Shown: positions 46,785 through 64,000 of the stretch, one piece after another
Numbering within the stretch: the first letter of the stretch is position 1
Layout: each line of letters begins with the position of its first letter
Source: Rhodothermia bacterium
GTDB taxonomy: Bacteria; Bacteroidota; Rhodothermia; Rhodothermales; JAAAOL01
Assembly: GCA_030428385.1 (NCBI GenBank)
Contig: JAUIDY010000004.1
Span: 1-64,000 of the forward strand
Reading direction: 5' to 3'
Length of the DNA: 64,000 nucleotides
Program-made: the position numbers and the translations under genes
The notes under the pieces: model-generated
What the model was told of the DNA's origin: nothing
The model's database searches: none
What the model saw: only the letters and a program-made list of their open reading frames with translations

Positions 46785-46873
46785 CGTTGTTGCAATCTTT
46801 GAAGAGGGGGATGGCACATGACACGCAGGCGTAGTACCGTATCGTGATTTGTCACGCATTATCGGTGGATGCT

Positions 46874-48406
46874 ATGATCGCACGTTTGGGCGTCGGGGTG
46901 TTGCTTTTTTTACTGATTAATCCGGTGGTGGCTGCGCAGGAAACGGGGACCATCACCTGGGTGCATTCGCTGGAAACGGCCCACACCCTGGTTCACATGG
47001 ACGCCGAAGGGGCCATGTACGGTGCCAACTCGGCAGAAACGGGCAGTTTTCCGGGCACGCTGGTTGCCAAGTATGACGCCGACGGGCAGCGCCTGTGGGA
47101 GGCCGAGGCGAGTGGACAGTGGCTCGTCACACATCTTGCTGCCAACACTTCCGGCGCGGTCTTCGTGATGGGGTTCTGCATCGGCAATACCGACTTCGAC
47201 GGCGACGGCGCGCCCGAGGTGGATCTGGACTACGACCGCAACGAACGGTCGCAGTTTTTCCTCGCCAAATACCAGCCGGACGGAGTTTTGCAGTGGGTAC
47301 GGGTGGCGCCCGGACCCGAGATCGGGGCGAAGGGCTACCAGTTGGCGGTTAATGAAGCTGGCGCGGCGTTTGTCGCAGGCGAAGGGCTGGTGGGGACCGA
47401 CTTTACAGGAAATGGAAAAGGGGATCTGGACGGCCAAAAGCGCACCGTCCGGCATTTTCTGACGGCCTATAATCCAGCGGGTGAAGTAGATTGGGTGTGG
47501 TCCTATGAGCCTGACGAAAGTGGCATTGCCGGGCTCTATGCGGATGATCGTTTTCTTTACCTCACCGGATTCACAACCGCGCCTGAACTCGATCTGGATG
47601 GCGATGGTCGCACTGACTGGATCTCGGACCGCGCCGATGGGCGTCCCGCCTTTTTCGTCGCCCGCTATCAGCCACGCAACCGCTCGTTGTGGGTGGTGCC
47701 ATTGCCCGGGGTGGGGTACGCCCTCACGGTGGATGACGACGACCACCTGTTTGTAACAGGCACCTATCTGTATGATGTCGATTTTGATGGTGACGGACGG
47801 CGAGAGGTGCCCCACGAAGGACTCGGCGACTTTTTCCTCGCCAAATACACAGGATCTGGCCGCGCCGTGTGGATGCGGTCGGCTACGGGAACGGGCTATG
47901 AAGGCGGGTTCAGTGTGGCAGCCGATGGAATGGGGGGAGCGTATGTGGCGGGTTCGTTCAGCAATGAGATGGACCTGGACCGCGATGGCAGCATCGACGT
48001 GCGCGGGGCCGGGCAAGGGCGTCCGGGTCTTTTTGTGGGACACTACGATGCGGATGGCATCCTGTCTTGGAAGCGCCCGTCCCTGATCGGTGCGGTGCCG
48101 GAGAGCCAGGTGGACGTGGTGTCTTTTGTGGTGGAGGGCAAGGCCCTGCCCGTGCTCACGGCACATCCGAAGGGGGTATACCTGGCCGGGATTTATGAAG
48201 GCACCGCGGTTTTTCCGGCGGGCACGGGGCAGAGGACCCCGGATGCCTTTGCTTCCGGGGCAGGCATCTATGTGGTTGGTTCCTTTGCGAACAGCCCGGC
48301 GTATACGGAGGACCTGCCGGCCTTTCTGAAAACCACCTTTGGGCAAACTTCCACCGTCAGCCACACACGCGGTTCATTTCTGATAAACTACGCGCCCCGG
48401 CCGTAA
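46874..48406 (+). CDS. Secreted SBBP-like repeat protein with calcium-type loops
   Basis: 510 residues from the ATG at 46874. Signal peptide about 1-22 (ending NPVVAAQ). Six related repeats each contain a strand like FFLAKYQPDGVLQWVR. The last five are preceded by an EF-hand-like aspartate loop: DFDGDGAPEVD, DFTGNGKGDLD, DLDGDGRTD, DFDGDGRRE, DLDRDGSID. This resembles beta-propeller SBBP repeats with built-in Ca2+ loops. No C-terminal sorting domain or anchor was seen. Function unknown; probably periplasmic or extracellular. Confidence 0.8.
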   Translation: MIARLGVGVLLFLLINPVVAAQETGTITWVHSLETAHTLVHMDAEGAMYGANSAETGSFPGTLVAKYDADGQRLWEAEASGQWLVTHLAANTSGAVFVMGFCIGNTDFDGDGAPEVDLDYDRNERSQFFLAKYQPDGVLQWVRVAPGPEIGAKGYQLAVNEAGAAFVAGEGLVGTDFTGNGKGDLDGQKRTVRHFLTAYNPAGEVDWVWSYEPDESGIAGLYADDRFLYLTGFTTAPELDLDGDGRTDWISDRADGRPAFFVARYQPRNRSLWVVPLPGVGYALTVDDDDHLFVTGTYLYDVDFDGDGRREVPHEGLGDFFLAKYTGSGRAVWMRSATGTGYEGGFSVAADGMGGAYVAGSFSNEMDLDRDGSIDVRGAGQGRPGLFVGHYDADGILSWKRPSLIGAVPESQVDVVSFVVEGKALPVLTAHPKGVYLAGIYEGTAVFPAGTGQRTPDAFASGAGIYVVGSFANSPAYTEDLPAFLKTTFGQTSTVSHTRGSFLINYAPRP

Positions 48407-48539
48407 CGTGAACGGGGCAAGAAGAACGCCGCAGAGCGCGTGCCGAAACCCGGCATTTAATGATAACATAATAGCGTGGCGACCCTGTCATCGTACTTTT
48501 GGCACTCCACCCCGGGTCGCTCAACCCCACGACGCTCCT

Positions 48540-49268
48540 ATGAACCACGCGGTCCTTTCTCTTCCCATGGTAGCTACCCCTACTGAAGCGCAAGCAAAGA
48601 TTCTCGTCGTTGATGATGAGGACGACATCCTCGACCTGATGGAGTATAACCTGCATCGGGCCGGTTTTGAGGTGGTGTTGGCCCGCGATGGCGTTGAAGG
48701 ATTGCGCAAGGCCGAGGCCGAAGCTCCGTCCCTCATTGTGCTCGATATCCTGATGCCCAACATGGACGGCATCGAAGTGTGTCGGCGGCTTCGTCAAAGT
48801 GCGCACCTGCGCCAGATTCCCATCCTGATGCTGACCGCGCTCAGCAGCGATGAAGACCACGTGCGAGGACTGGATGTCGGGGCCGATATCTACCTCAGCA
48901 AGCCCATCTCGGTCCCGGTACTGCTGAGCCAGATCAAGGCGCTGCTGCGTACCCAGCGCCGCACCGAGGAGCCGCCCGACCTGCTGCGGATTCACGACCT
49001 GGAGATCGACCGCGACCGCTATCTCGTCTTTCGAGGCTCCGACAAAGAGGAACTGCGGTTTCCGCGCAAAGAGTTCGAACTCCTCTATTTCCTCGCGTCC
49101 CATCCCGGCAAGGTCTTCACGCGCCAGGAACTGCTCGACCATGTGTGGGGGCGCGATGTGTATGTGGTAGACCGGACGGTGGATGTGCACGTCCGTAAAA
49201 TCCGCGAAAAGCTGAGTAATATCTACATCGAGACGGTGAAAGGCGTCGGCTACAAATTTATGGAGTAG
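48540..49268 (+). CDS. OmpR/PhoB family response regulator
   Basis: 242 residues from the ATG at 48540 (another ATG nine codons later is possible). Receiver domain with acidic pocket VVDDEDD, phosphoacceptor Asp69 (IVLDILMPNMDG) and the SKP lysine near 121. A winged-helix DNA-binding domain follows (FPRKEFELLYFLASHPGKVFTRQELLDHVWG ... VDVHVRKIREKL). Pairs with the histidine kinase gene 56 bp downstream; layout and sequence are close to PhoB or YycF. Confidence 0.93.
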   Translation: MNHAVLSLPMVATPTEAQAKILVVDDEDDILDLMEYNLHRAGFEVVLARDGVEGLRKAEAEAPSLIVLDILMPNMDGIEVCRRLRQSAHLRQIPILMLTALSSDEDHVRGLDVGADIYLSKPISVPVLLSQIKALLRTQRRTEEPPDLLRIHDLEIDRDRYLVFRGSDKEELRFPRKEFELLYFLASHPGKVFTRQELLDHVWGRDVYVVDRTVDVHVRKIREKLSNIYIETVKGVGYKFME

Positions 49269-49324: not shown

Positions 49325-50407
49325 ATGCCCGAATCCCGTCCACGCTGGTCTAGCAAAATTGCCCTGAAGCTCGCTTTTGGTGTGGCAGGGGCCGTGCTTG
49401 CCGTTGTCTTGCTCACGTCGGGCAGTGCATGGGCCATGCCGTGGCCCGCCGGGCTGGTGGTGGCGGTAGTCAGCGGTGCGGTAGCGTATGGCATGGCTTT
49501 GCGGATGGTAGCCCACCGGCTTGATGTGGCACGGGTCACCTTGCGGCAGATCCGCAAACACCAGTTTGAAGGACTCGAGGCGACGAAGCTGGCCCGCGGC
49601 GATGAAGTGAATGGATTAATCTGGGAGGTGTACCGCACCGGGCTGACGCTGGAGAAAGAGATCCATGAATTCAAACGCATTGAGAACTACCGCCGCGAGT
49701 TTCTGGGCAACGTCTCGCATGAGTTAAAAACGCCCATCTTCTCCATTCAGGGCTACGCCGAGACGCTGTTGCAAGGAGCCCTGGACGACGAAGATTATCG
49801 GCACGGGTTTGTGGAAAAAATCCTGCGCAACGCGGGGCGGCTGGGGAATCTTGCGAATGATCTCACCGAGATCTCGCGGATTGAGACGGGCGACCTCAAG
49901 ATGACCGTCGACACGTTTGCCTTGCCCATGTTGATGCACGAAGTGGTGGATGCGCTGGAGCCACTCGCCGCTTCGAAAAACGTGACGCTGCGCTGTCGCG
50001 TGGGCGATGACGTAAAGCCCGTCTGGGGCGATCGTGAGCGTATCCGGCAGGTACTGACCAACCTCGCCGATAATGCCATCAAGTACAACAACGCGGAGGG
50101 CCACGTCGAATTGGTGGCACGCATGCTTACTTCCGGCGACGTGAAAATTTCAGTGGTAGACGACGGCATCGGCGTCGCGCCCGAGCACATCCCCCGCCTC
50201 ACCGAGCGGTTTTACCGGGTAGACCGCAGCCGCTCGCGGCAGCAGGGGGGCACGGGCCTCGGCCTTGCCATCGTGAAGCACATCCTTGGTGCCCATGACC
50301 GCGAACTGGTCGTCGAAAGCAGCCCGGGGCGTGGCTCTACGTTTGGCTTTACGCTTTCGACGGCCTCCACCGCGCAGCGGCACAACCGCGTTCGCGCGGT
50401 TTTATAG
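49325..50407 (+). CDS. Sensor histidine kinase, PhoR-like
   Basis: 360 residues. Two N-terminal transmembrane helices (about 15-32 and 38-60) with almost no periplasmic loop, a short linker, then the DHp domain with His132 (VSHELKTPIFSIQGY). The ATPase motifs are N-box NLADNAIKYN, G1 VVDDGIGVAPEH and G2 GGTGLGLAIVKH. The lack of a sensory loop suggests it senses within the membrane or through a partner protein, as PhoR does. Phosphorylates the adjacent response regulator. Confidence 0.92.
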   Translation: MPESRPRWSSKIALKLAFGVAGAVLAVVLLTSGSAWAMPWPAGLVVAVVSGAVAYGMALRMVAHRLDVARVTLRQIRKHQFEGLEATKLARGDEVNGLIWEVYRTGLTLEKEIHEFKRIENYRREFLGNVSHELKTPIFSIQGYAETLLQGALDDEDYRHGFVEKILRNAGRLGNLANDLTEISRIETGDLKMTVDTFALPMLMHEVVDALEPLAASKNVTLRCRVGDDVKPVWGDRERIRQVLTNLADNAIKYNNAEGHVELVARMLTSGDVKISVVDDGIGVAPEHIPRLTERFYRVDRSRSRQQGGTGLGLAIVKHILGAHDRELVVESSPGRGSTFGFTLSTASTAQRHNRVRAVL

Positions 50408-50476: not shown

Positions 50477-50935
50477 ATGAAGCTTTCGGAACTGATCAAA
50501 CAAAACCACTTTGCCTCGCCGGGCCACGAAGCCATTCTAAATATTGTTGTTACGAGTTCGTGGCTTATGAATGAACTGGCGACGGCGATGGCTCCGTTTG
50601 GTGTGACACCGGCCCAATACAATGTCTTGCGCATCCTGCGGGGGAGCCATCCCGACCGGCGCACATGCAGCGACATCGGCGAGCGGTTGCTGGACCGAAC
50701 GCCCGACGTAACCCGCCTGCTCAACCGCATGCAGCATGCCGGGCTCATCTGCCGCCGCCGCGCCGAGCACGACCGCCGCGTGGTGGAGGTAGGGATCACC
50801 GCTGATGGAATGGGGTTGCTCGACCGCATGCAACCCACCGTCGAGGCCGTCACCGAGCGGTTGGTGCAGCACCTGTCCGAGGATGCCTTGATCACCCTGA
50901 ACCAGGCCCTCGAACAGATCCGCGCTGATCAGTAG
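50477..50935 (+). CDS. MarR family transcriptional regulator
   Basis: 152 residues. Winged helix-turn-helix: VTPAQYNVLRILRGS, CSDIGERLLDRTPDVTRLLNRMQHAGLICRRRAEHDRRVVEVGIT, with the DxR wing of the family. Dimeric repressors of this type usually respond to small phenolic or oxidative signals. It lies 24 bp before the YhhQ transporter gene and may be co-transcribed with it. Confidence 0.9.
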   Translation: MKLSELIKQNHFASPGHEAILNIVVTSSWLMNELATAMAPFGVTPAQYNVLRILRGSHPDRRTCSDIGERLLDRTPDVTRLLNRMQHAGLICRRRAEHDRRVVEVGITADGMGLLDRMQPTVEAVTERLVQHLSEDALITLNQALEQIRADQ

Positions 50936-50959: not shown

Positions 50960-51685
50960 ATGGAATCACCCCTCGAAGCCCTGCGTGTGTCTGCGCCGGG
51001 GCGGGCCGAACAGGTTTATCTGCTCCTTGCCGGTATTTTCCTCGGCGCATTGGTCATGACCAATGCCATTGCCGGGAAGTTTTTTGTGCTGTTCGGACAA
51101 GAGCTTTCCTGTGGCATCATCGCCTATCCGGTCACCTTTCTCGCGACGGACTTGATCTCGGAGCTGTATGGGCGCAAGCGGGCGACGCTGATCGTGAAGG
51201 TGGGCTTTGCCGTCAGCGTCTTCGTGACCCTCGTGGTGATGGTAGCCAACTACGTGCCCATCTTCGACCAGTCCCCGGTGGATCAACAGTCGTTTAGTAC
51301 GGTCTTTGGCTTGTTGCCCGGCATTGTTTTCGGTTCTATGATTGCGTACCTCACGGCGCAGTTTATCGATGTGCAGCTTTTTGAGTTTTGGCGCACCCTG
51401 ACCAAGGGACGGCACCTGTGGCTGCGCAACAACGCATCCACCGTCTTTAGCCAACTCGTCGATACGGTGCTGGTGGTGACCATTGCACTGGTGATTTGGC
51501 CCCAGGTGGACACCAACCCCAATACGACCCCGATTTCCGGAAGCGTGTGGTGGAATATCATCGTGGGGCAATATCTTTTTAAGGCTGGCATCGCTCTGCT
51601 GGATACGCCGCTGTTTTATGCCCTCACGGCGTGGCTGCGCGGTTATATTGCCCCCACGGCGCAGGAAGGGGTGCTGGTTACGTAG
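50960..51685 (+). CDS. Queuosine precursor transporter, YhhQ family
   Basis: 241 residues with about six hydrophobic helices. Family signatures: MTNAIAGKFFVLFG, CGIIAYPVTFLATDLISELYGRKRA, AQFIDVQLFEFWRTLTKGRHLWLRNNASTVFSQLVDTV. Members import preQ0 or preQ1 for queuosine tRNA modification. Length is typical. No preQ1 riboswitch can fit in the 24-bp gap upstream. Confidence 0.93.
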   Translation: MESPLEALRVSAPGRAEQVYLLLAGIFLGALVMTNAIAGKFFVLFGQELSCGIIAYPVTFLATDLISELYGRKRATLIVKVGFAVSVFVTLVVMVANYVPIFDQSPVDQQSFSTVFGLLPGIVFGSMIAYLTAQFIDVQLFEFWRTLTKGRHLWLRNNASTVFSQLVDTVLVVTIALVIWPQVDTNPNTTPISGSVWWNIIVGQYLFKAGIALLDTPLFYALTAWLRGYIAPTAQEGVLVT

Positions 51686-51781: not shown

Positions 51782-52120
51782 ATGGGAAAAAAGCTGGTAT
51801 TGTTCATCATCGTAGCCCTGGCCTTGGCGGGGTTTTTTACGCGTCCTTCTCAGGATGATTTCCAACAGGAGTTGCAGGCGCGGTATGACGTGATGGCGGC
51901 GCAGGCAGATGACATCCTGCGGTCGCGGATGCATAATGACAATGTGCTCGACCGCATGGTGGCCACCGCCACTCCTGCCGAACTGCTCCTGCGCACGGAT
52001 TTTTCTGATTTTTACGTGTTCACCATGTTCGTCACCGAATATGCGGATCCTATGGGAACCCAGCATGTGCGCACCTTTGGGGTCTTTCAAACCTTTTTGC
52101 CCTTTAAAAAGCCCGGTTGA
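51782..52120 (+). CDS. Small exported protein, DUF4359-like
   Basis: 112 residues. A short N-terminal hydrophobic helix (LVLFIIVALALAGFF) then FTRPSQDDFQQEL, a pattern I associate with DUF4359 proteins; the rest is a small alpha/beta domain ending in FGVFQTFLPFKK. Single-pass or secreted; function unknown. Precedes the FG-GAP protein cluster by 170 bp. Confidence 0.65.
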   Translation: MGKKLVLFIIVALALAGFFTRPSQDDFQQELQARYDVMAAQADDILRSRMHNDNVLDRMVATATPAELLLRTDFSDFYVFTMFVTEYADPMGTQHVRTFGVFQTFLPFKKPG

Positions 52121-52290: not shown

Positions 52291-55200
52291 ATGCTTTTTC
52301 GTACCGCGCTGCTCCTTCTCTTTTTTACTGGGACGTTGTCGAGCCACGCCCAGCCATTTCTGCGGGTCAATACGGCTCCTGAAAGTGATGCCAGTCCCAT
52401 TGAATCTATTCCTATCGCGGGCGTTGGCGATTATGTGCCGGGGCATTATCTGGGAGCCGCCGCCTGGGGAGATTTTGACGGAAACGGGTTCCAGGACTTG
52501 CTTGCGACCGGCATCTCGCCGCAGATCATCAATGTGGGCTTGGGAGAAGCTGTGCAGGAAGATGTGCGCCTCCCGACGACGCGGATCGTGGCGGTGAGCC
52601 AGGTCTGCGATGCCGAGACGGGCATATGTAGCCTGGTGTACAACCGCCGGGAACTGCCGCTGGCCCTTGTTCACGCGGATGCCACATGGATCGACTATGA
52701 CAACGATGGCGACTTGGATGCCTTGCTGAGTGGATCGCGAACCGAAGTGGCTCCGTTCGATCCCGTCACGGCCCTTTTTGAGAATCAAGACGGGGCGTTT
52801 GTGGAGGTGAGCACGGGATTGGCGGGCCTGTACGCGTCCATGATTGCGTGGGCCGATACCGATAACGATGGCGACAGCGATGTCCTGCTCGCGGGGCAGA
52901 ACGCCGATGGGGTGCCGCAGACCTTGTTCTATCGCAATGATAACGGCACGTTTACCCCTGTTGCCATGCCCTTTCCTGACGTGGCCTTTGGCGATGCGGC
53001 GTGGGGCGACTATGACGGAGATGGCGACCAGGACCTGGTGCTGATGGGGGCAACGGCCAGCAAGGCTTTTCACATCTTCCTTTTCCGCAATGAAGGCGAC
53101 GGCAGTTTCACCGAAATTGATGCCGGGTTGCCCAACCTTGCCTTTGGAGTGCTGGATTGGGGCGACTATGACAATGATGGCGACCTCGACCTTTTTATCA
53201 CCGGGGCGCGCTTTGGGGTGTTTCTGCTGAACGCCGTCGCGGGTGTCTGGCGCAATGAAGGAGGGCGTTTCACGCAGGTGGTAACGGGGGCAGGTGTTTT
53301 TTATGGCGATGCAGGCTGGGGCGACTATGACGGAGATGGCGATCTGGACTTGTTGAGCACGGGTTTTGTGCGGCCCCGGACCTCGTCCACGATGCAGGTG
53401 TTGCGGAACGAAGGCAATGGGTCGTTCGCCACTACGTTTATTGAAGGATTAGAATTGGACGGGTATGACTACGGGAGTGCCTCCTGGTTTGACATCGACA
53501 GCGATGGCGACCTGGATGTGGCGTATATGGGCGAGGATGGCTTGGTGCGGCACCGTATCTTTATCAACCGGGTCCTGCGTAATTCCGCGCCCAACAACCT
53601 GCGGCCGGGAAGCCCGCAAGGGTTGCAGGCCGTTCGCGAGGACGAATTTGTTCGGTTTTCGTGGCAGCCGGCTGCCGATAATGAGACGCCCACAGTGGCT
53701 TTGACCTACAACCTGCGTGTGGGTACCAGCCCTAGCGGATCAGAGGTGCTGAGTGCGCTGGCGCATCCTATTACGGGGCAGCGGCGGGTTTCCACAAAAG
53801 GCAACGTGGGGGCCCGCACCAGTTGGCGGTTGCGGCTTCCCGAAGGCACCTATTATTGGAGCGTGCAGACCATCGACGCCACGCAGGCAGGCTCCGTCTT
53901 TGCTGCGGAGCAACTCTTCGACGGACAGGGCGGCGGCGATGATACCGTGCCGCCAGAGGCTCCCACCATGCTGGCCGCGCAGGCTCTCGACCAGCAGGTA
54001 GTGCTGACGTGGGCTCCGAATAGCGAAGACGACCTGGTGTCATATCGCATCTATCGCGGGGTTGCGCCGGATGCAGGGACGGTTCTCGCAAGTGTCCCGG
54101 CGGGGACGGAGTTCTACGACGATACCAGCGTGGTAAATGAAACCACCTATGCCTATCGCATCACGGCGCTTGATCGTTCAGGCAATGAAAGCACCTTCTC
54201 CACGACGGTAATCGCAACGCCCGCGCCGGTGCTTACCGCCCATGCTGTCAATTTGCCCGCCTTGCGTGATGGGGCGGGTGCCTGGGGCGACTATGACAAC
54301 GATGGCGACCTCGACCTGGTGCTGGTGGGCAACGGCGACGGAGTGGTCCTTGCCGACATCTACCGCAACGATGGAAACAACACCTTCACGCCCATCAACA
54401 GCGGCCTGCCGCCCAACTTCCGCAGTGCCGTGGCGTGGGGCGATTATGACAACGATGGCGACCTCGATCTGGCCCTGAACGGCGACGTAGGCCGCATCGG
54501 CGGCGAGGTGGTTTCGCAGATCTACCGCAATGACGAAGGCACGTTTGTCCTCACCGACATTAACCTGTTCGATGTCTTTGGCGGAGCGATGGCGTGGGGT
54601 GATTATGACAATGATGGCGACCTCGACTTGCTGCAAACGGGCAACCGCCCTGGCCCCGAAGGGAACAGCTTTGCACAGGCTCCCCTGACCATCCTCTATG
54701 AGAACAACGGGGCGGGTCAACTGCTGTCTTCCTCCATCGAAATTCCTGACCTCATCAATGGCGAGGTGGCATGGGGCGATTATGACAACGACGGTGATCT
54801 GGACATTTTGATGTCAGGGCTGCTGAACAATGACTTCCGCTCTCTTGTCTTGCGCAATGACAACGGTGCGTTCACCGATATCAATGCCGCGCTGTTGCCC
54901 GGCGTTCGGTCACACATTGCATGGGTGGATCATGACAGCGATGGCGATCTGGATGTGGCGATTGGCAGTCCCAATATTACCAGTGCCTTTGTCTATGTAA
55001 ACGAGGGCGGCCTATTTGACGGTACGCGCATTGGGTTCGGAGACGGCCTGATCGATGGAATGGCGTGGGGCGACTACGACAATGATGGCGACCCTGACAT
55101 GGCTGGTTTTGATGACCGCACCACCGAGCTTTTTCGCAATGACGGCGGCGTGTTCGTCAACGTCGACTTTGACCTGCCGGAGGGCACCGCTATCCCGTTC

Positions 55201-55650
55201 TTCGCATGGGGCGATTATGACCAGGATGCCGACCTCGACTTTGTGCTGCTCACCAACCTGTCGGTCCGGCTTTTTGAGCTTGACTATCGCCCCGGTAATA
55301 CCGCTCCTGAAACACCGGGCAACCTGGAGGCGGCGATAGCGGGTGCCGCCGCCACGCTGTCGTGGGATGTGGTTGTTGATGCCCAGACGCCCGTGCCCGC
55401 GTTAAGCTACAACCTGCGGGTAGGCACTACCCCGGGAGGGTCGGAGGTGATGGTGCCCATGAGCTTGTCAGACGGGACACGGCTCGTGCCCCAGGCGGGC
55501 AACGTGGGGCCGAATCAGGCCTGGACGTTGCGCAACCTGCCAGCGGGTACGTACTACTGGAGCGTGCAGGCCCTCGACGCCAGCTTTGCTGCTTCATCAT
55601 TTGCAGCGGAAGGTACATTTGTGATTGAGGAAGGAGGCCTTCGGCCTTAA
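52291..55650 (+). CDS. Secreted protein with two seven-repeat FG-GAP/VCBS propellers
   Basis: 1119 residues from the ATG at 52291, where a signal peptide starts (LFRTALLLLFFTGTLSSHAQ). Seven repeats with the loop W[GA]DYDNDGDLD lie at about residues 57-423. Two fibronectin-III-like domains follow (about 437-545, with TYYWSVQTID; about 550-645). A second set of seven repeats (about 665-1000) and a final fibronectin-like domain complete it. Seven repeats with Ca2+-type DxDxDG loops is the number in integrin-alpha-type propellers. There is no C-terminal sorting domain. Longer in-frame start at 52162 rejected. Probably a surface or extracellular binding protein. Confidence 0.85.
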   Translation: MLFRTALLLLFFTGTLSSHAQPFLRVNTAPESDASPIESIPIAGVGDYVPGHYLGAAAWGDFDGNGFQDLLATGISPQIINVGLGEAVQEDVRLPTTRIVAVSQVCDAETGICSLVYNRRELPLALVHADATWIDYDNDGDLDALLSGSRTEVAPFDPVTALFENQDGAFVEVSTGLAGLYASMIAWADTDNDGDSDVLLAGQNADGVPQTLFYRNDNGTFTPVAMPFPDVAFGDAAWGDYDGDGDQDLVLMGATASKAFHIFLFRNEGDGSFTEIDAGLPNLAFGVLDWGDYDNDGDLDLFITGARFGVFLLNAVAGVWRNEGGRFTQVVTGAGVFYGDAGWGDYDGDGDLDLLSTGFVRPRTSSTMQVLRNEGNGSFATTFIEGLELDGYDYGSASWFDIDSDGDLDVAYMGEDGLVRHRIFINRVLRNSAPNNLRPGSPQGLQAVREDEFVRFSWQPAADNETPTVALTYNLRVGTSPSGSEVLSALAHPITGQRRVSTKGNVGARTSWRLRLPEGTYYWSVQTIDATQAGSVFAAEQLFDGQGGGDDTVPPEAPTMLAAQALDQQVVLTWAPNSEDDLVSYRIYRGVAPDAGTVLASVPAGTEFYDDTSVVNETTYAYRITALDRSGNESTFSTTVIATPAPVLTAHAVNLPALRDGAGAWGDYDNDGDLDLVLVGNGDGVVLADIYRNDGNNTFTPINSGLPPNFRSAVAWGDYDNDGDLDLALNGDVGRIGGEVVSQIYRNDEGTFVLTDINLFDVFGGAMAWGDYDNDGDLDLLQTGNRPGPEGNSFAQAPLTILYENNGAGQLLSSSIEIPDLINGEVAWGDYDNDGDLDILMSGLLNNDFRSLVLRNDNGAFTDINAALLPGVRSHIAWVDHDSDGDLDVAIGSPNITSAFVYVNEGGLFDGTRIGFGDGLIDGMAWGDYDNDGDPDMAGFDDRTTELFRNDGGVFVNVDFDLPEGTAIPFFAWGDYDQDADLDFVLLTNLSVRLFELDYRPGNTAPETPGNLEAAIAGAAATLSWDVVVDAQTPVPALSYNLRVGTTPGGSEVMVPMSLSDGTRLVPQAGNVGPNQAWTLRNLPAGTYYWSVQALDASFAASSFAAEGTFVIEEGGLRP

Positions 55651-55872
55651 AAAAGGAGTGTGAAAAAGCAGCAAACGCATCAATTTTTACCTTTGAACTG
55701 TAGGTTCAGGCACAGATCTTAACCCGCTGGTTTCTTGGGGTACTAAATACACAGAAACTCCAAGGAGAAACCGCATCCGTCTGGCTAGGCACTGGTAGAT
55801 TGCAACCTGCCAGATCTGTGACACGGGTATGGCGACTTGAAAGACAATGACAACGTTTGGATGACGCATTGC

Positions 55873-57768
55873 ATGAATAAAACAAACACCTGGCTTTGTA
55901 GCGGATGGTTGCTGCTTGGCGTTTTGTTACTGGTCTCGGTTGAGGCTACGATGGCGCAGCCCTTCACCTTCACCTATGTAGAAACGGAGTTTCCCGCCAT
56001 CAACTATGGCTCGCTGGATTATGCCGATGTGGATGCCGATGGTGACCTGGATCTTGTGGTGGCGGGCAATGCCAACCGGTTTCAGCCCTTTCTCCCCACC
56101 TCGTTTGTGGCCATGAGTGAAGGCGAAGAAATCATCTCGTCGGGCAGTTCCGTTTTGTGGCGGCACAACTACAACGAAATGGCACTGCCCCAGCAGTTGT
56201 GGCACACCGAAACAAGCTGGGCCGACTACGACGCCGATGGTGATCTCGACTTTGTGATGATGGGCACGGCGCAACCCGAAGCGCCGTTTGAGGCCAGCAC
56301 CGTGATGTACCGCAAGGACGGCACCAGCTTTCAGGTGGCGGATGTGGGCTTGCCCGCGCTGTATGGCGGTGCTGCCGAATGGGCCGACTATGACAACGAC
56401 GGCGACCCTGACCTGCTCCTGACCGGCTCTACTTCGGACGAACAGTTCGAGTCGCACCTCTTTCGCAATGACGGGGGCGTCTTCACTGATGTAGACACCG
56501 ACCTGCGGAATGTGGCCTTCGGCGACGCCGCCTGGGGCGACTACGATGCGGATGGCGACCTCGACCTGTTGCTTTCTGGAGCCGACAACACCGGGGCGTT
56601 TTTCACCGAAGTGTACCGCAACGACGCGGGCACCCTGACCAACAGCGGGGCGTCACTCGAAGGACTCGCCTTTACCTCACTCGACTGGGGCGACTACGAC
56701 AACGATGGCGACCTCGACATCCTGCTGACCGGCGGCGAACTAAGCCCGTTTGTGCTAGATGGCGTCGTGAAGATCTACCGCAATGAAAGTGGCGGTTTCC
56801 TGGAGGTGGATACCAACCTCGATGGCATTGTGTATGGCACCAGCGCCTGGGGTGACTACGACAATGATGGCGACCTCGATATTCTTGTGATCGGAGGACG
56901 GCAAGCGCTCGGGACCCAGTTCGGACGCGTGTATCAAAACCAGGGCGGCGGACGGTTTGTGCAAACCGTCACGCTAAGCGGGGCGAGCCTCGCCACGGCC
57001 CTGTGGGGCGACTACGATGGCGATGGCGACCTCGACATCATCGTGAGCGGCTTAAGCTCCAACGGCAACCCCCTGACGAACCTGTACCGCAACGACCACC
57101 GGCTGGTTAACACGCCGCCGTTTGCACCCTCCGGCTTGCAAGCCAATGCGGAAGGCGGGAGCGTGACACTTAATTGGGAACGGGCAACCGATGAACAAAC
57201 CACGGCGGCAGGCTTGAGCTACAACCTGCGCGTCGGCACTTCGCCCGGAAGCGCCAATGTGGTTGCGCCCATGTCCTCATTGGAGACCGGGGAACGGTGG
57301 GTGCCCGCGCCGGGCAATGTGGGCAGCAGTGCCCGCTGGCGACTCAACCTGGAGCCCGGCACCTACTACTGGAGTGTGCAGGCGGTGGACCATGCCTTCA
57401 AAGGATCGGCGTTTTCTGAGGAGGGCACGTTCACCATAAGTGGGAAAAGCGACGACTCCGCCACGGATGCCGAGGACAGCACCTTGCCCACCCGTATTGC
57501 GCTGCATGCCAACTTCCCCAACCCGTTCCGCGAAGCCACCACCCTTGCCTACGACCTCCCCGCGCCCACTCAGGTGGACATGACCATCTACAACATTTTG
57601 GGAGCCGAGGTACGGCACTTGGTCAGTCAGACACAGCCTGCGGGCCAGCAACAGGTGGTTTGGGACGGCACCGACGAGGCTGGACGCCGGGTAAGCGCCG
57701 GGGTCTATTTTGTGCGGTTGGAGGTGGGCGGATCCGCATGGAGCCAGAAACTCATGCTGCTCAACTAG
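55873..57768 (+). CDS. Secreted FG-GAP propeller protein with type IX-style sorting domain
   Basis: 631 residues from the ATG at 55873 (other in-frame starts at 55837 and 55861). Signal peptide ending VEATMAQ. One set of seven W.DYD.DGD repeats (about 40-400), one fibronectin-III-like domain (about 415-525, TYYWSVQAVD), an acidic linker, and a C-terminal domain starting FPNPFREATTLAYDLP and ending in SQKLMLLN, the pattern of type IX-secreted proteins. Of the three genes in this row that are complete in the window, only this one has the sorting domain. The 220 bp upstream contain CACAGATCT (55711-55719) inverted at 55812-55820. Confidence 0.87.
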   Translation: MNKTNTWLCSGWLLLGVLLLVSVEATMAQPFTFTYVETEFPAINYGSLDYADVDADGDLDLVVAGNANRFQPFLPTSFVAMSEGEEIISSGSSVLWRHNYNEMALPQQLWHTETSWADYDADGDLDFVMMGTAQPEAPFEASTVMYRKDGTSFQVADVGLPALYGGAAEWADYDNDGDPDLLLTGSTSDEQFESHLFRNDGGVFTDVDTDLRNVAFGDAAWGDYDADGDLDLLLSGADNTGAFFTEVYRNDAGTLTNSGASLEGLAFTSLDWGDYDNDGDLDILLTGGELSPFVLDGVVKIYRNESGGFLEVDTNLDGIVYGTSAWGDYDNDGDLDILVIGGRQALGTQFGRVYQNQGGGRFVQTVTLSGASLATALWGDYDGDGDLDIIVSGLSSNGNPLTNLYRNDHRLVNTPPFAPSGLQANAEGGSVTLNWERATDEQTTAAGLSYNLRVGTSPGSANVVAPMSSLETGERWVPAPGNVGSSARWRLNLEPGTYYWSVQAVDHAFKGSAFSEEGTFTISGKSDDSATDAEDSTLPTRIALHANFPNPFREATTLAYDLPAPTQVDMTIYNILGAEVRHLVSQTQPAGQQQVVWDGTDEAGRRVSAGVYFVRLEVGGSAWSQKLMLLN

Positions 57769-57806
57769 ATGGTTTCATGGGTGTGTGTTGTTGTCGTGGA
57801 GCCGTA

Positions 57807-60800
57807 ATGAAGGTGTGCCTCACCTATGGTGCCTTGACCCTCGGCATTATGGGTGCTGCGGTGCCCGCCTGGGCGCAGGTAGAAGGCGGCTTTCGCATCA
57901 TGGCCGACTCGATTCCCAACGTCTACTTTGGCGAGATGGCATGGGGCGATGTGGACCAGGATGGTGATTTTGACGTCGCCATCTCGGGTGGGGAAACAGC
58001 CGGAACCACCACGCTGCATATCAATGCCGGGGATGTGATTTGGCAGACCCAAGCCGGGTCGATCTTTGGCACCGACTACGATTTTCCCTACAACCAGGGT
58101 GGTATTCTCGACCCGCGCCCGGAGAATCCGTTGCGTCCCAGTGGCATTAGCAAGGTGGCATGGATCGATTACAACGGCGATGGCAGCCTCGACCTGGTGA
58201 CCAATGGCCTGAATGATGCCGGTGTGCCCGAGGTAACGCTTTATGAGTATGTGGGCGGTGCCGTGCACCTCGCCTTAGATAGCCGTTTGCCGGGCACATT
58301 CTTCGGGGGGATGGATTGGGGCGATTATGACAATGATGGAGACCCTGACCTTGCACTCAGCGGGAAAGACGAAACGGGAGCCGATGCCACCTTTCTGTAT
58401 GAGTATCAACGCGAGAGGGGGGGTGGCTTTGTCCGACGTGATCCTGGATTGACGGCCCTGGCTTATGGCTCAGTCGATTGGGGTGACTATGACCGTGATG
58501 GCGACCTCGACTTGCTGGTTTCCGGCATCCAGGCCCAGCCTCAGGCTTTTCTTGTAAAGGTGTACCGCAACGATGGCAATGGTGCCTTCGTGGATATCGG
58601 AGCCCGTTTTGATGCGCTGGCCTTTGCCACGGCTGCCTGGGGCGATTATGACGCCGACGGCGACCTTGATGTGGTGTTGTCGGGCGGCAAGCTGAGCCCG
58701 TTTCTGCTCCGGGGAACCCTGCGCGTGTTCCAAAACACCGGCGGTAGCTTTTCGTCGATTGGGGTGGATGCACCTGGTGGGTTTCAGGGTGGCGTCATGT
58801 GGGGCGACTATGATGCCGATGGGCGGCTGGATGTGGCTTCGGTAGGCGGATCGGGGCCGGTGACCGTGAACCGATTACAGATCATTCGCAACCTGGGCCA
58901 TGATTTTGCTCCGATTGGCGATTTTGCTGGCGTGGCGTATGGCGATGTGACATGGGGCGATTATGACAACGATGGTGACCTCGATCTGTATATGGTGGGC
59001 CGGAGCACCACAGGGCTCCCCTTAAGTCAGCAATTCCGCAATGAACTGAACCCCGGCAACCAGCCCCCAGCGGAACCGCAAAACTTGCACGCCCGGCGCG
59101 AAGGCGACGACGTGATTTTTAGCTGGGACGCGGTCACGGATGATTTTACCCCGTCGGCGGGGTTGACCTATAACCTGCAGGTGGGGCTCGATCCCGGTAC
59201 GCACGATGTGTTATCGGCCATGGCCCGCCCTGATGGCAACCGCCTGATTGCTGATTTTGGCAACGTGGGGCACCGGCTGTCGTGGCGGCTGCGGATGCCC
59301 GAAGGGGTGTATTACTGGAGCGTGCAGGCCATCGACGGCAGCTATCGCGGCGGGCCATTTGGCGAGGAACAGATCATTATCAGCGGGGACCCCAACGACG
59401 AGATTCCGCCTGCGCCGCCCCAAAGGTTGGAGGTTCTGCCAGGAGATGGACAGGTCTTCCTTTCTTGGGCCGAGAATGAAGAAGAAGACCTCGCCCGCTA
59501 CCGTCTGTACCGCGGCACGGCACCCGGCACCGGCGAGCGGTTGGTGTCCATCACTGCCGGCACGCGGATCACCTACCTCGACGATAGGGTGCAAAACGGA
59601 ACGGTGTATTATTATCGCCTCACGGCGGTTGACATCTCGGGCAACGAAAGCGTGTTCTCCGAAGAAGCCGCCGCCGATCCCTTGCCGTTGCTTGCGGAGG
59701 TCGATCCTGGGTTGCCGCGCGGGACAGACATAAGCGCAGCCTGGGGCGACTACGATGCCGATGGCAACATGGACCTCCTTGTGGCAGGCAATGCCCAGTT
59801 TCGGTTCAACGACATCTATCGCAACGAAGGCGATACCCTGATCAACATCAATGCCAGGCAGCCCATTATTGTGGGCGGGACGCATGCCTGGAGTGACTAT
59901 GACGGCGACGGCGACCTGGATTATGCGTTCACCGGGAACGTGAACTTTACCTCACCCTCTACCCGGGTGCAGCGCAACGACGATGGACAGTTCGTCCGGG
60001 CAGCTTCAGGGGTAGACCTCCCGGGCGTGGCCTTCGGACGTATTATGTGGGGCGACTATGATACCGATGGCGACCTCGACTTGCTGGTGCAGGGACGCAC
60101 CAATAACCTGCCGTTGACGGCGGTTATTCGCAACGAGGGAGACAACACCTTCATGAATGCCGATGCTGCGTTGCCGGGTGTTTTTAGCGGCGACGCCGTG
60201 TGGGCCGACTACGACAACGATGGCGACCTTGATGTGGCGGTGGCAGGGCAGTCCGCAGCCGACGGCAGCTTCTTGACCCGCGTTTATGCGTACAACAATA
60301 GCCAGTTCGAACAAGGGACTTCGTATGCCAGCGTGAGCAATGCGTCCCTGGCCTGGGCTGACTTCGACGGCAATGGGCGGCTGGATCTTATGGTCTCGGG
60401 CTTCACCGCCCTGAATGCCAACACGCGGGTGTATTACGATGATGGCAACGCGACGGCCACAGGGTTGCCCCCTTCCGCTGTACAACTGTATCCGGGCGAT
60501 TTTAACAACGATGGCCGTATCGACGTGGCGACTTCCGGGTCAGGCGGGATACGGATCTACCTCAACCTCGGGCGCAGCTTTGTGAATAGTGGCATCTTCA
60601 TCCCCGATAGCGAAAATGCCGCTTTTGCCTGGCTCGACTGGGACGGCGATCTCGACCTTGATCTGGCCGTTATTCGCAGCCTTCGCTCCCGCATCTACCT
60701 CAACAACACCCGTCCGTTTAACACCCGCCCTGGCGTTCCCGCGGGGTTGAATACCACGGTGACCGAAGCGGGCGTGGCCCTGAATTGGGAGGCCGCACAC

Positions 60801-61085
60801 GATGCGCAGACGTCGCATCTGACCTACAATGTACGGGTCGGCACCACGCCCGGTGGGCAAGAGGTGGTCGCGGCGATGAGTTTGCCGGACGGCACACGGC
60901 AGGTCGCTGCGGCAGGCAATGCGGGCCACGCGCTGGCACGGCCTCTGTCGTTATTACCACCCGGAACGTATTACTGGAGCGTACAGGCCGTGGACCACAG
61001 CTTTGTGGGCTCGGCCTTTGCGCCCGAACAAACCTTCACGGTGGGTGCTTCTATATCCTCCGGCACCGAAGCGCCTGCTCCGTAA
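57807..61085 (+). CDS. Secreted protein with two seven-repeat FG-GAP/VCBS propellers
   Basis: 1092 residues from the ATG at 57807, which has GGAG a few bases before it and starts a signal peptide (CLTYGALTLGIMGAAVPAWAQ). Same architecture as the first gene of the row: seven aspartate-loop repeats, two fibronectin-III-like domains (RLSWRLRMPEGVYYWSVQAIDG; APPQRLEVLPGDGQVFLSWAENEEEDL), seven repeats, and a last fibronectin-like domain (TYYWSVQAVDHSF). Some loops of the second set have drifted (DFNNDGRID, DWDGDLDLD). It ends without a sorting domain. It starts 38 bp after the preceding gene, so the two are likely one transcript. Confidence 0.85.
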   Translation: MKVCLTYGALTLGIMGAAVPAWAQVEGGFRIMADSIPNVYFGEMAWGDVDQDGDFDVAISGGETAGTTTLHINAGDVIWQTQAGSIFGTDYDFPYNQGGILDPRPENPLRPSGISKVAWIDYNGDGSLDLVTNGLNDAGVPEVTLYEYVGGAVHLALDSRLPGTFFGGMDWGDYDNDGDPDLALSGKDETGADATFLYEYQRERGGGFVRRDPGLTALAYGSVDWGDYDRDGDLDLLVSGIQAQPQAFLVKVYRNDGNGAFVDIGARFDALAFATAAWGDYDADGDLDVVLSGGKLSPFLLRGTLRVFQNTGGSFSSIGVDAPGGFQGGVMWGDYDADGRLDVASVGGSGPVTVNRLQIIRNLGHDFAPIGDFAGVAYGDVTWGDYDNDGDLDLYMVGRSTTGLPLSQQFRNELNPGNQPPAEPQNLHARREGDDVIFSWDAVTDDFTPSAGLTYNLQVGLDPGTHDVLSAMARPDGNRLIADFGNVGHRLSWRLRMPEGVYYWSVQAIDGSYRGGPFGEEQIIISGDPNDEIPPAPPQRLEVLPGDGQVFLSWAENEEEDLARYRLYRGTAPGTGERLVSITAGTRITYLDDRVQNGTVYYYRLTAVDISGNESVFSEEAAADPLPLLAEVDPGLPRGTDISAAWGDYDADGNMDLLVAGNAQFRFNDIYRNEGDTLININARQPIIVGGTHAWSDYDGDGDLDYAFTGNVNFTSPSTRVQRNDDGQFVRAASGVDLPGVAFGRIMWGDYDTDGDLDLLVQGRTNNLPLTAVIRNEGDNTFMNADAALPGVFSGDAVWADYDNDGDLDVAVAGQSAADGSFLTRVYAYNNSQFEQGTSYASVSNASLAWADFDGNGRLDLMVSGFTALNANTRVYYDDGNATATGLPPSAVQLYPGDFNNDGRIDVATSGSGGIRIYLNLGRSFVNSGIFIPDSENAAFAWLDWDGDLDLDLAVIRSLRSRIYLNNTRPFNTRPGVPAGLNTTVTEAGVALNWEAAHDAQTSHLTYNVRVGTTPGGQEVVAAMSLPDGTRQVAAAGNAGHALARPLSLLPPGTYYWSVQAVDHSFVGSAFAPEQTFTVGASISSGTEAPAP

Positions 61086-61103
61086 CCTTTAGAAAGTACC
61101 TGA

Positions 61104-64000
61104 ATGACATTGTTAAAACGGACATTTTTCTTTTCACTGCTTCTGGCCATGAGCCTCGGGGAGGCGTCTGCGCAAAATCTGGTGTATCGGGTGATGTTCA
61201 ACCAGTTGCCACCCACGCAGGATGGCGCGGCCGCGTGGGGCGACTACGACGGCGACGGCGACTTCGACATCGCCATTACGGGCAACATGGGCGCGCGCTT
61301 CAATGGGGTCTATTCGTACGATGGCGACTTCACGTATCCCGGCCCGATGGGCGGAACGGTGTATGAAACGCGCTACAGCTTCCCATTTAATGAAAACCAG
61401 CCGCTCGACGTCCGCCCCCCGTCGCCGTTTATAAACTGCACCAACAGCAGCGTGGCCTGGGGGGATTATGACAACGACGGCGATGTGGACATGGCGATGG
61501 CGGGAATCTGCCAGGGGCAGCCGGGGCGCTTGGTGTTGCACGCCAACAACCAGAGTGAAGTCCTCTTCAGCTTTCCCATTTCGCTGGATGGCGTCTCGAA
61601 TGGAGCGCTGGCGTGGGGCGACCATGACAACGACGGCGACCTCGACCTTGCGGTCACCGGGATTACCAGCGACGGGAGTTATGCCGCATGGATCTACGAA
61701 AACCAGTTGCGCGACGCCGTCGGCTGGGTGCGCCGCGACGTAGGGCTGCCAGGGCTGGCCTTTGGCTCCATTGAATGGGGCGATTACGATGCCGATGGCG
61801 ACCACGACCTGCTCATCTCCGGCATTTCGCAGGCGAAAGCGTGGGTAACCGCCGTGTATCGCAACAACGCCGATGGTTCGTATTCCCAAGTAGATACCCG
61901 TTTCCGCGCGATGGCATGGTCCTCGGCGGCATGGGGCGATTACGACGCTGATGGCGATCTCGATATCGCCATCAACGGGGGGCGACTGAGCCCGTTTATG
62001 TTTCGCGGCAGCGCCCGTGTGTATCGCAACGATGGTGGGCAGTTTAACGACATCGGCGTAGACCTGGATGGGGGCTTTCAAGGCGGAATCGACTGGGGTG
62101 ATTATGACGGCGACGGCGATCTGGATCTGGTAATGAGTGGTGGCACTGCGCCGTTGGGGACGCGGTCCTTCCGGGTGTACCAGAACGATGGCGGGAACGG
62201 CTTTTCGCCCGTCACCCAGCCGACGGGCCTGAGCAATGGCACCGCGTTTTTTGGCGACTATGACGCCGACGGCGACCTCGACGCCTTTGGGCTGGGGCTG
62301 CGCTCGGATGGACGGCGCACCGATGTGCTGCGTAACGAGTTAACATCGGGCAACAGCGCCCCGACCGCGCCCACCGAACTGCGGGCCCGTCGCGAAGGCG
62401 ATGCACTGGTCTTTACCTGGGACGCTGCTTCCGATGCCGAGACGGCAGCGGCGGGGCTCACCTACAACCTGCGCGTGGGCAACTTGCCCGGCGGTGCGAG
62501 CTTCCTCTCGGCGATGGCCCTGCCCAACGGACGGCGGCTGATTCCGGGGGCGGGCAACGTCGGTCATCGGCTGGAGTGGGAACTGCGTGGCCTGCCGGAG
62601 GGCACGTACTACTGGAGCGTGCAGACCATCGATGGCAGCGGACGCACGTCGCCCTTTGCCGAAGAGCAGATCTTTTCCTCCAACCCCGACGACATGACGC
62701 CGCCTGCGGCTCCGGCGGGCTTTACGGCAGAAGAAGGCGACGGCTTTGTCACGCTAGGCTGGCAGGCCAACGCCGAACCCGACGTGGTGCGCTACCGCAT
62801 CTTCCGAGATACCACGCCCAACGCCGAGACCCGCCTGGCTACATTGCTGGCGGATAACCTTTCGTACCTCGATACCGACGTGGAAAACGGCACGACCTAT
62901 TATTACCGTCTCCGCGCCGAGGATGCATCGGGCAACGAGAGCGAGTATTCCGAAGAATTTGCGGTGCTGCCCCGCTCGCCGTTTGTGGACGCTGGCGTCA
63001 CACTGCCCGGGATTGCCTCTGGCGACGCGGCGTGGGCCGACTATGACAACGACGGCGACGACGATCTCATCCTCACGGGCCAATCCACGTCTTCCATTGG
63101 CGTTACATCGCCGCTGACGGAGGTGTTTGACAATGACGGCGGGACGCTGGTGATGGGCAACAAAGCCCTGCCCGCCCTCGTGGGCAGCGCTGCCGATTGG
63201 GGTGATTACGATGGCGACGGCGACCTGGATCTGGCGCTGGCAGGGACGCAGGATGGCACCCGTGTTGCGTATATCTTCCAAAACAACAACGGCGAGTTTC
63301 TGGACATCGGCGCTCCGCTGCGTGGGCTCGCGTTTGCAGCGGCCACCTGGGGCGATTATGACAATGATGGTGACCTTGACCTGATTCTGGCTGGCGACAC
63401 CGGCTCCGATACCGTCACCGACATCTACCGCAATGATGGCGGCAATACGTTTGTCCAACTGGGACCCACGGCCACGGGCGGCGACTTGCCCGGCGTGGCC
63501 CACGGCTCAGTGGAACTGGATGACTACGATGGCGATGGCGACGATGACCTGTTGTTATCGGGTAACTTCGACGGGTTTGTGGTGCTGCGCATTTACCGCA
63601 ACATCGGCAGCGGGCAGTTCCGCGACATCTTGGCTGGCTTCCCCGGTCTTGAAAACGGCGAAGCCACGTGGGGCGACTACGACGGCGACAACGACCTCGA
63701 CTTTGCCGTGACGGGCTCCGTGAATGGCAACTCCGTCGCCCGCGTGTACCGCAACGATGGCGGCGCGTTTGTCGACATCCTCGCCGACTTTGAAGGGCGC
63801 GGCGGACGCTCGATTGCCTGGGCCGACTATGACGGCGACGGCGACCTGGATCTGGCGCTGCAAGACGCGTTTGGCGAGACCGACATCTTTGCGTACGACG
63901 GCACGGCCTTCCAGAACATCCACGTGACCACCATGCCGCAGGACATCGCGTTTGGCAAGGTGGCATGGGGCGACATGGACGGCGACGGCGACCCCGACTT
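61104..64000 (+). CDS. Secreted FG-GAP/VCBS double-propeller protein, cut by window end
   Basis: At least 965 residues; the frame is open from the ATG at 61104 to the last base, and spot checks at 62.2, 62.9, 63.3 and 63.96 kb stay in frame. The signal peptide reads FFFSLLLAMSLGEASAQ. Seven aspartate-loop repeats, two fibronectin-III-like domains (EGTYYWSVQTIDGSG; EEGDGFVTLGWQANAEPDVVRYRIF), then six further complete repeats and the start of a seventh (WGDMDGDGDPD). This matches the two double-propeller genes upstream. It begins 18 bp after the previous stop. Whether a sorting domain follows is unknown. Confidence 0.85.
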   Translation, partial: MTLLKRTFFFSLLLAMSLGEASAQNLVYRVMFNQLPPTQDGAAAWGDYDGDGDFDIAITGNMGARFNGVYSYDGDFTYPGPMGGTVYETRYSFPFNENQPLDVRPPSPFINCTNSSVAWGDYDNDGDVDMAMAGICQGQPGRLVLHANNQSEVLFSFPISLDGVSNGALAWGDHDNDGDLDLAVTGITSDGSYAAWIYENQLRDAVGWVRRDVGLPGLAFGSIEWGDYDADGDHDLLISGISQAKAWVTAVYRNNADGSYSQVDTRFRAMAWSSAAWGDYDADGDLDIAINGGRLSPFMFRGSARVYRNDGGQFNDIGVDLDGGFQGGIDWGDYDGDGDLDLVMSGGTAPLGTRSFRVYQNDGGNGFSPVTQPTGLSNGTAFFGDYDADGDLDAFGLGLRSDGRRTDVLRNELTSGNSAPTAPTELRARREGDALVFTWDAASDAETAAAGLTYNLRVGNLPGGASFLSAMALPNGRRLIPGAGNVGHRLEWELRGLPEGTYYWSVQTIDGSGRTSPFAEEQIFSSNPDDMTPPAAPAGFTAEEGDGFVTLGWQANAEPDVVRYRIFRDTTPNAETRLATLLADNLSYLDTDVENGTTYYYRLRAEDASGNESEYSEEFAVLPRSPFVDAGVTLPGIASGDAAWADYDNDGDDDLILTGQSTSSIGVTSPLTEVFDNDGGTLVMGNKALPALVGSAADWGDYDGDGDLDLALAGTQDGTRVAYIFQNNNGEFLDIGAPLRGLAFAAATWGDYDNDGDLDLILAGDTGSDTVTDIYRNDGGNTFVQLGPTATGGDLPGVAHGSVELDDYDGDGDDDLLLSGNFDGFVVLRIYRNIGSGQFRDILAGFPGLENGEATWGDYDGDNDLDFAVTGSVNGNSVARVYRNDGGAFVDILADFEGRGGRSIAWADYDGDGDLDLALQDAFGETDIFAYDGTAFQNIHVTTMPQDIAFGKVAWGDMDGDGDPD

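Follow-up and report, generated by a model that had tools for sequence, protein, structure and literature searches.

Introduction

Single cargo proteins of the type IX secretion system (T9SS) are well known, and among T9SS surface proteins PorZ also has propellers. Type A sorting domains are established as leading to export by T9SS and to surface anchoring (PMC10202324; PMC9143113). Bacterial integrin-type propellers have been described as having seven repeats with a calcium-type loop in each, sometimes as two tandem rings (Chouhan et al. 2011, PMC3192720). Our search, mainly of open-access literature, found no paper joining FG-GAP or VCBS repeats with T9SS and none describing the gene pair analysed below, whose folds are already known.

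Here we analyse four genes, P1–P4, at the end of a 64,000-nucleotide stretch of DNA (the window, meaning the whole stretch). P2 is termed gene A; P3 and P4 are termed gene B, of which P1 is a separate upstream line. We conclude that the four-gene cluster is an enlarged form of an old two-gene A/B locus, found across much of the order, and we read it, at a probability of roughly 0.55, as an expanded locus in which a surface-anchored A has a tagless partner B.

Results

Four genes assembled from seven-repeat blocks

The four genes follow one another at gaps of 222 (P1–P2), 38 (P2–P3) and 18 (P3–P4) bases (Table 1). By motif score they contain 7+7, 7, 7+7 and 7+7 repeats in P1, P2, P3 and P4, respectively, giving a total of 49; the repeats are about 50 residues apart in blocks of seven, except that repeats 1 and 2 of every first block are 66–74 residues apart, with an insert common to P1–P4. 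Shuffled proteins used as a control averaged 0.2–0.8 hits, with a maximum of 5. The sequence-only reading had counted 7+7, 7, 7+7 and 7 plus a cut 7, which these results bear out, P4 completing its 7+7 past the window. We detected a DxDxDG-like loop in every repeat (49/49), and Pfam FG-GAP_3 (PF13517) scored 185.7, 96.8, 171.9 and 169.2 bits in P1–P4 (cut-off 26.9). Identity to P3 over the aligned length is 40% for P1, 43% for P4 and 35% for P2. Read directly, all four N-termini are signal-peptide-like, without a lipobox cysteine. The same reading had called the proteins giant, a relative term for chains of 631–1,119 amino acids, and had assigned them a fixed order of propeller, Fn, Fn, propeller, Fn. 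That order applies to P1 and P3 but not to P2 (propeller, Fn, sorting domain) or to P4, which has no third Fn.

Table 1. Features of the A/B cluster and its upstream neighbours (window coordinates)
Feature	Position	Strand	Description	Basis
Response regulator	48408..49268	+	Conserved upstream neighbour	Orthologue match in relatives
Histidine kinase	49325..50407	+	Conserved upstream neighbour	Orthologue match in relatives; name by sequence reading
MarR-like regulator	50477..50935	+	In part of relatives	Name by sequence reading
VUT-family transporter (PF02592)	50960..51685	+	Conserved upstream neighbour	Pfam, relatives
112-aa protein	51782..52120	+	No Pfam match	Same place in G001
P1	52291..55650	+	ATG start 52291; upstream B type; signal peptide, propeller, FnA, FnB, propeller, FnA	
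P1 first seven-repeat propeller	~52465..53640	+		Motif score
P1 second seven-repeat propeller	~54283..55314	+		Motif score
P2 (gene A)	55873..57768	+	Signal peptide, 7-repeat propeller, FnA, T9SS type A sorting domain	
P2 seven-repeat propeller	~56020..57140	+		Motif score, model
P2 T9SS type A C-terminal sorting domain	57514..57756	+		TIGR04183 37.8 bits, cut-off 23
P3 (gene B, doubled)	57807..61085	+	Signal peptide, propeller, FnA, FnB, propeller, FnA	
P3 first seven-repeat propeller	~57942..59090	+		Motif score, model
P3 second seven-repeat propeller	~59742..60735	+		Motif score, model
P4 (second gene B, doubled)	61104..64000	+	Stop at contig 64076; signal peptide, propeller, FnA, FnB, propeller	
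P4 first seven-repeat propeller	~61236..62370	+		Motif score
P4 second seven-repeat propeller	63033..64000	+	Rest beyond window end	Motif score

The linker modules, previously taken as fibronectin-III-like throughout, divide into two types. FnB, the second module, matches many solved fibronectin-III domains; FnA, the first and last type, is only weakly like fibronectin-III (best E 0.047). Pfam fn3 remained below its cut-off in P1–P4, and FnA was not called.

Predicted structures support seven-bladed propellers

AlphaFold models of P2 (605 residues, 15 rows, mean pLDDT 84.1) and P3 (1,069 residues, 20 rows, mean pLDDT 83.7) both have a predicted four-stranded blade pattern. The best PDB fold matches found with Foldseek were the integrin alpha-V and alpha-4 heads and CRTAC1 for P2, and the receptors ROS1 and Sevenless together with integrin alpha and CRTAC1 for P3. 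P2 aligned with the seven-bladed LGI1 EPTP ring at a target TM of 0.70–0.71 over about 395 columns; rmsd over whole chains is large, reflecting the joint comparison of several domains. A profile search against solved structures returned CRTAC1 (E 9.6e-16), integrin alpha-4 (E 2.5e-7) and also integrin alpha-V; by single-sequence search no solved homologue was found for P2, and only an Fn3-like chain for P4.

Repeat counts in relatives, obtained with a simple motif score, are exactly seven in 75 of about 85 single-ring frames of the order, the others having six or eight or being cut by a contig end. The smallest B proteins, in one family (412–419 amino acids), amount to hardly more than a signal peptide plus seven repeats. 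The claim that the strict sevens form complete seven-blade propellers is supported by the confident models, the integrin alpha and CRTAC1 relatives, the near-constant sevens and partners of 412 amino acids. These predictions fit seven-bladed β-propellers in P1–P4 and lend indirect support to ring closure; the loop repeats would bind calcium.

P2 alone among the four carries a sorting domain

The C-terminal domain of P2 also matches, by profile, the solved gingipain/Por sorting domains. No TIGR04183 match was found in P1, in P3 or in the part of P4 inside the window, and the full P4 stops directly after repeat 14 with neither a terminal Fn nor a sorting domain. A hidden sorting domain after P4 was considered and rejected: the next frame is soon closed by stops and is unrelated. 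The sequence-only reading had proposed a surface system. This stands for P2, given its sorting domain and, in the same genome, SprA of the T9SS translocon (1,736 bits) and at least 150 T9SS sorting domains; P1, P3 and P4 have a signal peptide only, and for B both export and a place at the surface are what we would expect of the proposed arrangement.

The B proteins of relatives likewise start with signal-peptide-like sequences, and an NCBIfam scan found a sorting domain in none of six of them (0/6) and in the A proteins. Because the doubled-propeller proteins of one relative, G006 (L147 1057–4779 and L148 3–3476), themselves bear a sorting domain, this division of labour between A and B is not absolute.

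A and B are neighbours across much of the order

P2 was matched at 1e-60 or better in 52 of the 114 genomes of the order. A and B are adjacent on one strand at 40 of the 47 relative loci inspected, a count made mainly in genomes picked for having A, and they usually overlap or lie within tens of bases of each other. The remaining seven loci are two in G006, one at a contig end (G028), one with a different arrangement (G021), two in which the partner gene is cut by a contig end (G026 and G002) and one in which B is truly absent (G004, with A at the VUT site and no B nearby). The locus spans several families. Where the assembly reaches, its main chromosomal site has the response regulator, histidine kinase, MarR-like regulator (in part) and VUT transporter upstream of A and then B, followed by genes facing the opposite way: an IlvE aminotransferase, at some loci a GT2 glycosyltransferase, then DUF4249 and a TonB-dependent receptor. 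In G001, the one further genome found for the family, the genes run doubled B, A, doubled B; other families have A then B, or B then A in part of one family, and the arrangement A, B, B occurs in two genomes. The neighbouring genes resemble housekeeping genes and give no pointer to a ligand. Further upstream, at 46844–48406 of the window, lies a 520-amino-acid protein with SBBP-type repeats, a propeller-like surface candidate with weak similarity to propeller lipoproteins of the LipL53 family (NF047494; its 44 bits fall far short of the cut-off).

No further FG-GAP genes, which the sequence-only reading had suggested looking for, occur in the 16 kb after P4. Most relatives have IlvE about 20–200 bp from the pair; here the distance is 12 kb, and the DNA between IlvE and P4 (contig 64.1–76.3 kb; L031 3080–15340), just past the window, is an insert with at least six attC-like sites of 118–124 bp (L031 4066, 5017, 6019, 8947, 9585 and 14554) interspersed with unrelated small genes (HNH, NYN, kinase and others). 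It resembles an integron cassette array without an integrase nearby; an integron integrase is present on another contig of the genome (C75, 462.9 bits). The insert may have removed the third Fn of P4. An Rfam scan downstream of P4 gave no match, and a phage origin was set aside, the viral-contig scan giving only two weak matches.

The genes belong to old, separate lineages

We built a tree of 84 labelled rows from the rings alone, leaving the sorting domain out. The A and B labels change three times on this tree, compared with 28 times in shuffles, and well-supported branches force one change. P2 falls in lineage A. P3 belongs to a supported group comprising 15 B rows, its first ring clusters with that of P4 (97), and P1 and the upstream gene in G001 make up a line of their own. 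In doubled proteins the second ring is placed elsewhere in the tree than the first, so a recent duplication of the first ring does not simply account for the doubling. We also rejected recent tandem duplication as the source of the cluster, as P2, P3/P4 and P1 group with their positional counterparts in other genomes. The run of closely spaced genes, earlier read as a tandem array, is therefore better described as old separate lineages at a conserved locus.

Of the 55 genome pairs drawn from 11 genomes, 52 show lower conservation for B than for A (mean identity 0.32 versus 0.40); the pairs are mutually non-independent, strict orthology of every B is not proven, and the relatives were sampled at one genome per species. 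The earlier suggestion that the run reflects diversified binding specificity does not hold in that form; what the comparison gives is a faster divergence of B than of A. Candidate pairs outside the order, in Latescibacterota and Gemmatimonadota (L044, L087 and L110), were left uncounted because their B proteins group elsewhere. At L044 9845–16040, L087 9821–15432 and L110 7100–14565, the gene for a doubled sorting-domain propeller precedes one for a tagless protein of about 500 amino acids with seven repeats.

FG-GAP_3 matches number 149 in the genome as a whole (6.19 Mb, 245 contigs), spread over about two dozen genes, and many of the single-ring genes among them bear a sorting domain. With so many matches and sorting domains, and SprA, in one genome, the FG-GAP propeller module taken alone is nothing unusual in this organism; the propeller–FnA unit is found in many phyla. 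Clusters of several FG-GAP proteins of a different repeat subgroup (580–680 amino acids) lie on other contigs of this genome, C86 (L161) and C20 (L162), and a sorting domain was not found in them with one profile.

Discussion

We propose that gene A encodes a seven-bladed, calcium-loop propeller that would be exported by Sec, cross the outer membrane by T9SS via its C-terminal sorting domain and then be anchored at the surface. Gene B, including the separate upstream line P1, would encode propeller proteins exported by Sec without a sorting domain. B would act as a partner of A, co-exported with it or held on it, and most likely binds A or the ligand of A. Together the two may form a two-subunit surface binding complex, with a glycan or a surface protein as a plausible ligand; in this family B has been doubled to two propellers and multiplied, which would give several rings per cell. 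A stronger version, in which A and B assemble into a hetero-oligomeric receptor at the surface, tagless B riding on T9SS-tagged A across the outer membrane and serving as the fast-changing, ligand-facing subunit, we consider doubtful. To our knowledge, such piggyback export is not known for T9SS.

That A stands beside B at 40 loci in several families, with order and orientation conserved, is difficult to account for unless the two function jointly. It argues against the view, which we regard as unlikely, that these are independent surface adhesins with their own ligands, B reaching the surface without a recognisable sorting domain and the neighbourhood being an old duplication, although two observations speak for it: the genome has numerous further single-propeller FG-GAP genes that bear sorting domains, and the fold occurs in many phyla. 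It is similarly improbable that B stays in the periplasm as a chaperone, quality-control factor or ligand carrier, either for A or for the DUF4249 and TonB-receptor neighbours. The B members examined do have a signal peptide but no sorting domain, and in most relatives the opposite flank of the locus contains DUF4249 and the TonB-dependent receptor; however, those genes face the opposite way, IlvE stands between them and B in several families, and B shares the ring architecture of A while diverging at a higher rate, something less expected of a chaperone. Calcium-type loops kept in all 49 repeats, and chains of rings and Fn modules that could serve as spacers, would also suit a structural surface layer, a calcium-stiffened coat rather than a receptor, but with one to four genes per genome at the A/B locus we think this very improbable.

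Read as a surface-anchored A with a tagless partner B, the locus offers a conserved, related pair of which one member is tagged, and hence a clean test of whether T9SS moves or holds protein complexes. The pair would also provide a surface marker for the whole order, with a ligand to search for.

Comparison with known systems

The closest structural relatives are CRTAC1 (9etn) and the integrin alpha head, which lead the profile matches to solved structures and rank among the top fold matches; both are animal proteins with other partners, and identity is low (11–17%). The bacterial integrin-type propellers (PMC3192720) are alike in their seven repeats, calcium-type loop per repeat and two-ring proteins, but their FG-GAP/Cage motif is mostly absent from P1–P4 (by a simple pattern, FG-like in 17/49 repeats and GAP-like in 1/49). 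Because the Cage motif is not found, the integrin analogy is limited to the fold. With T9SS surface proteins such as RemA and SprB (adhesins) and PorZ, P2 has its predicted T9SS export in common, but no similarity was found outside the sorting domain, and the match to PorZ is confined to the C-terminal domain. FG-GAP_3/VCBS-type proteins (PF13517) with a T9SS type A domain share the repeat family, the seven-repeat rings, the signal peptide and, with P2, the TIGR04183 domain. Compared with these, the present cluster differs in that P1, P3 and P4 lack TIGR04183, and in that A and B have been retained together as a pair at a single conserved locus.
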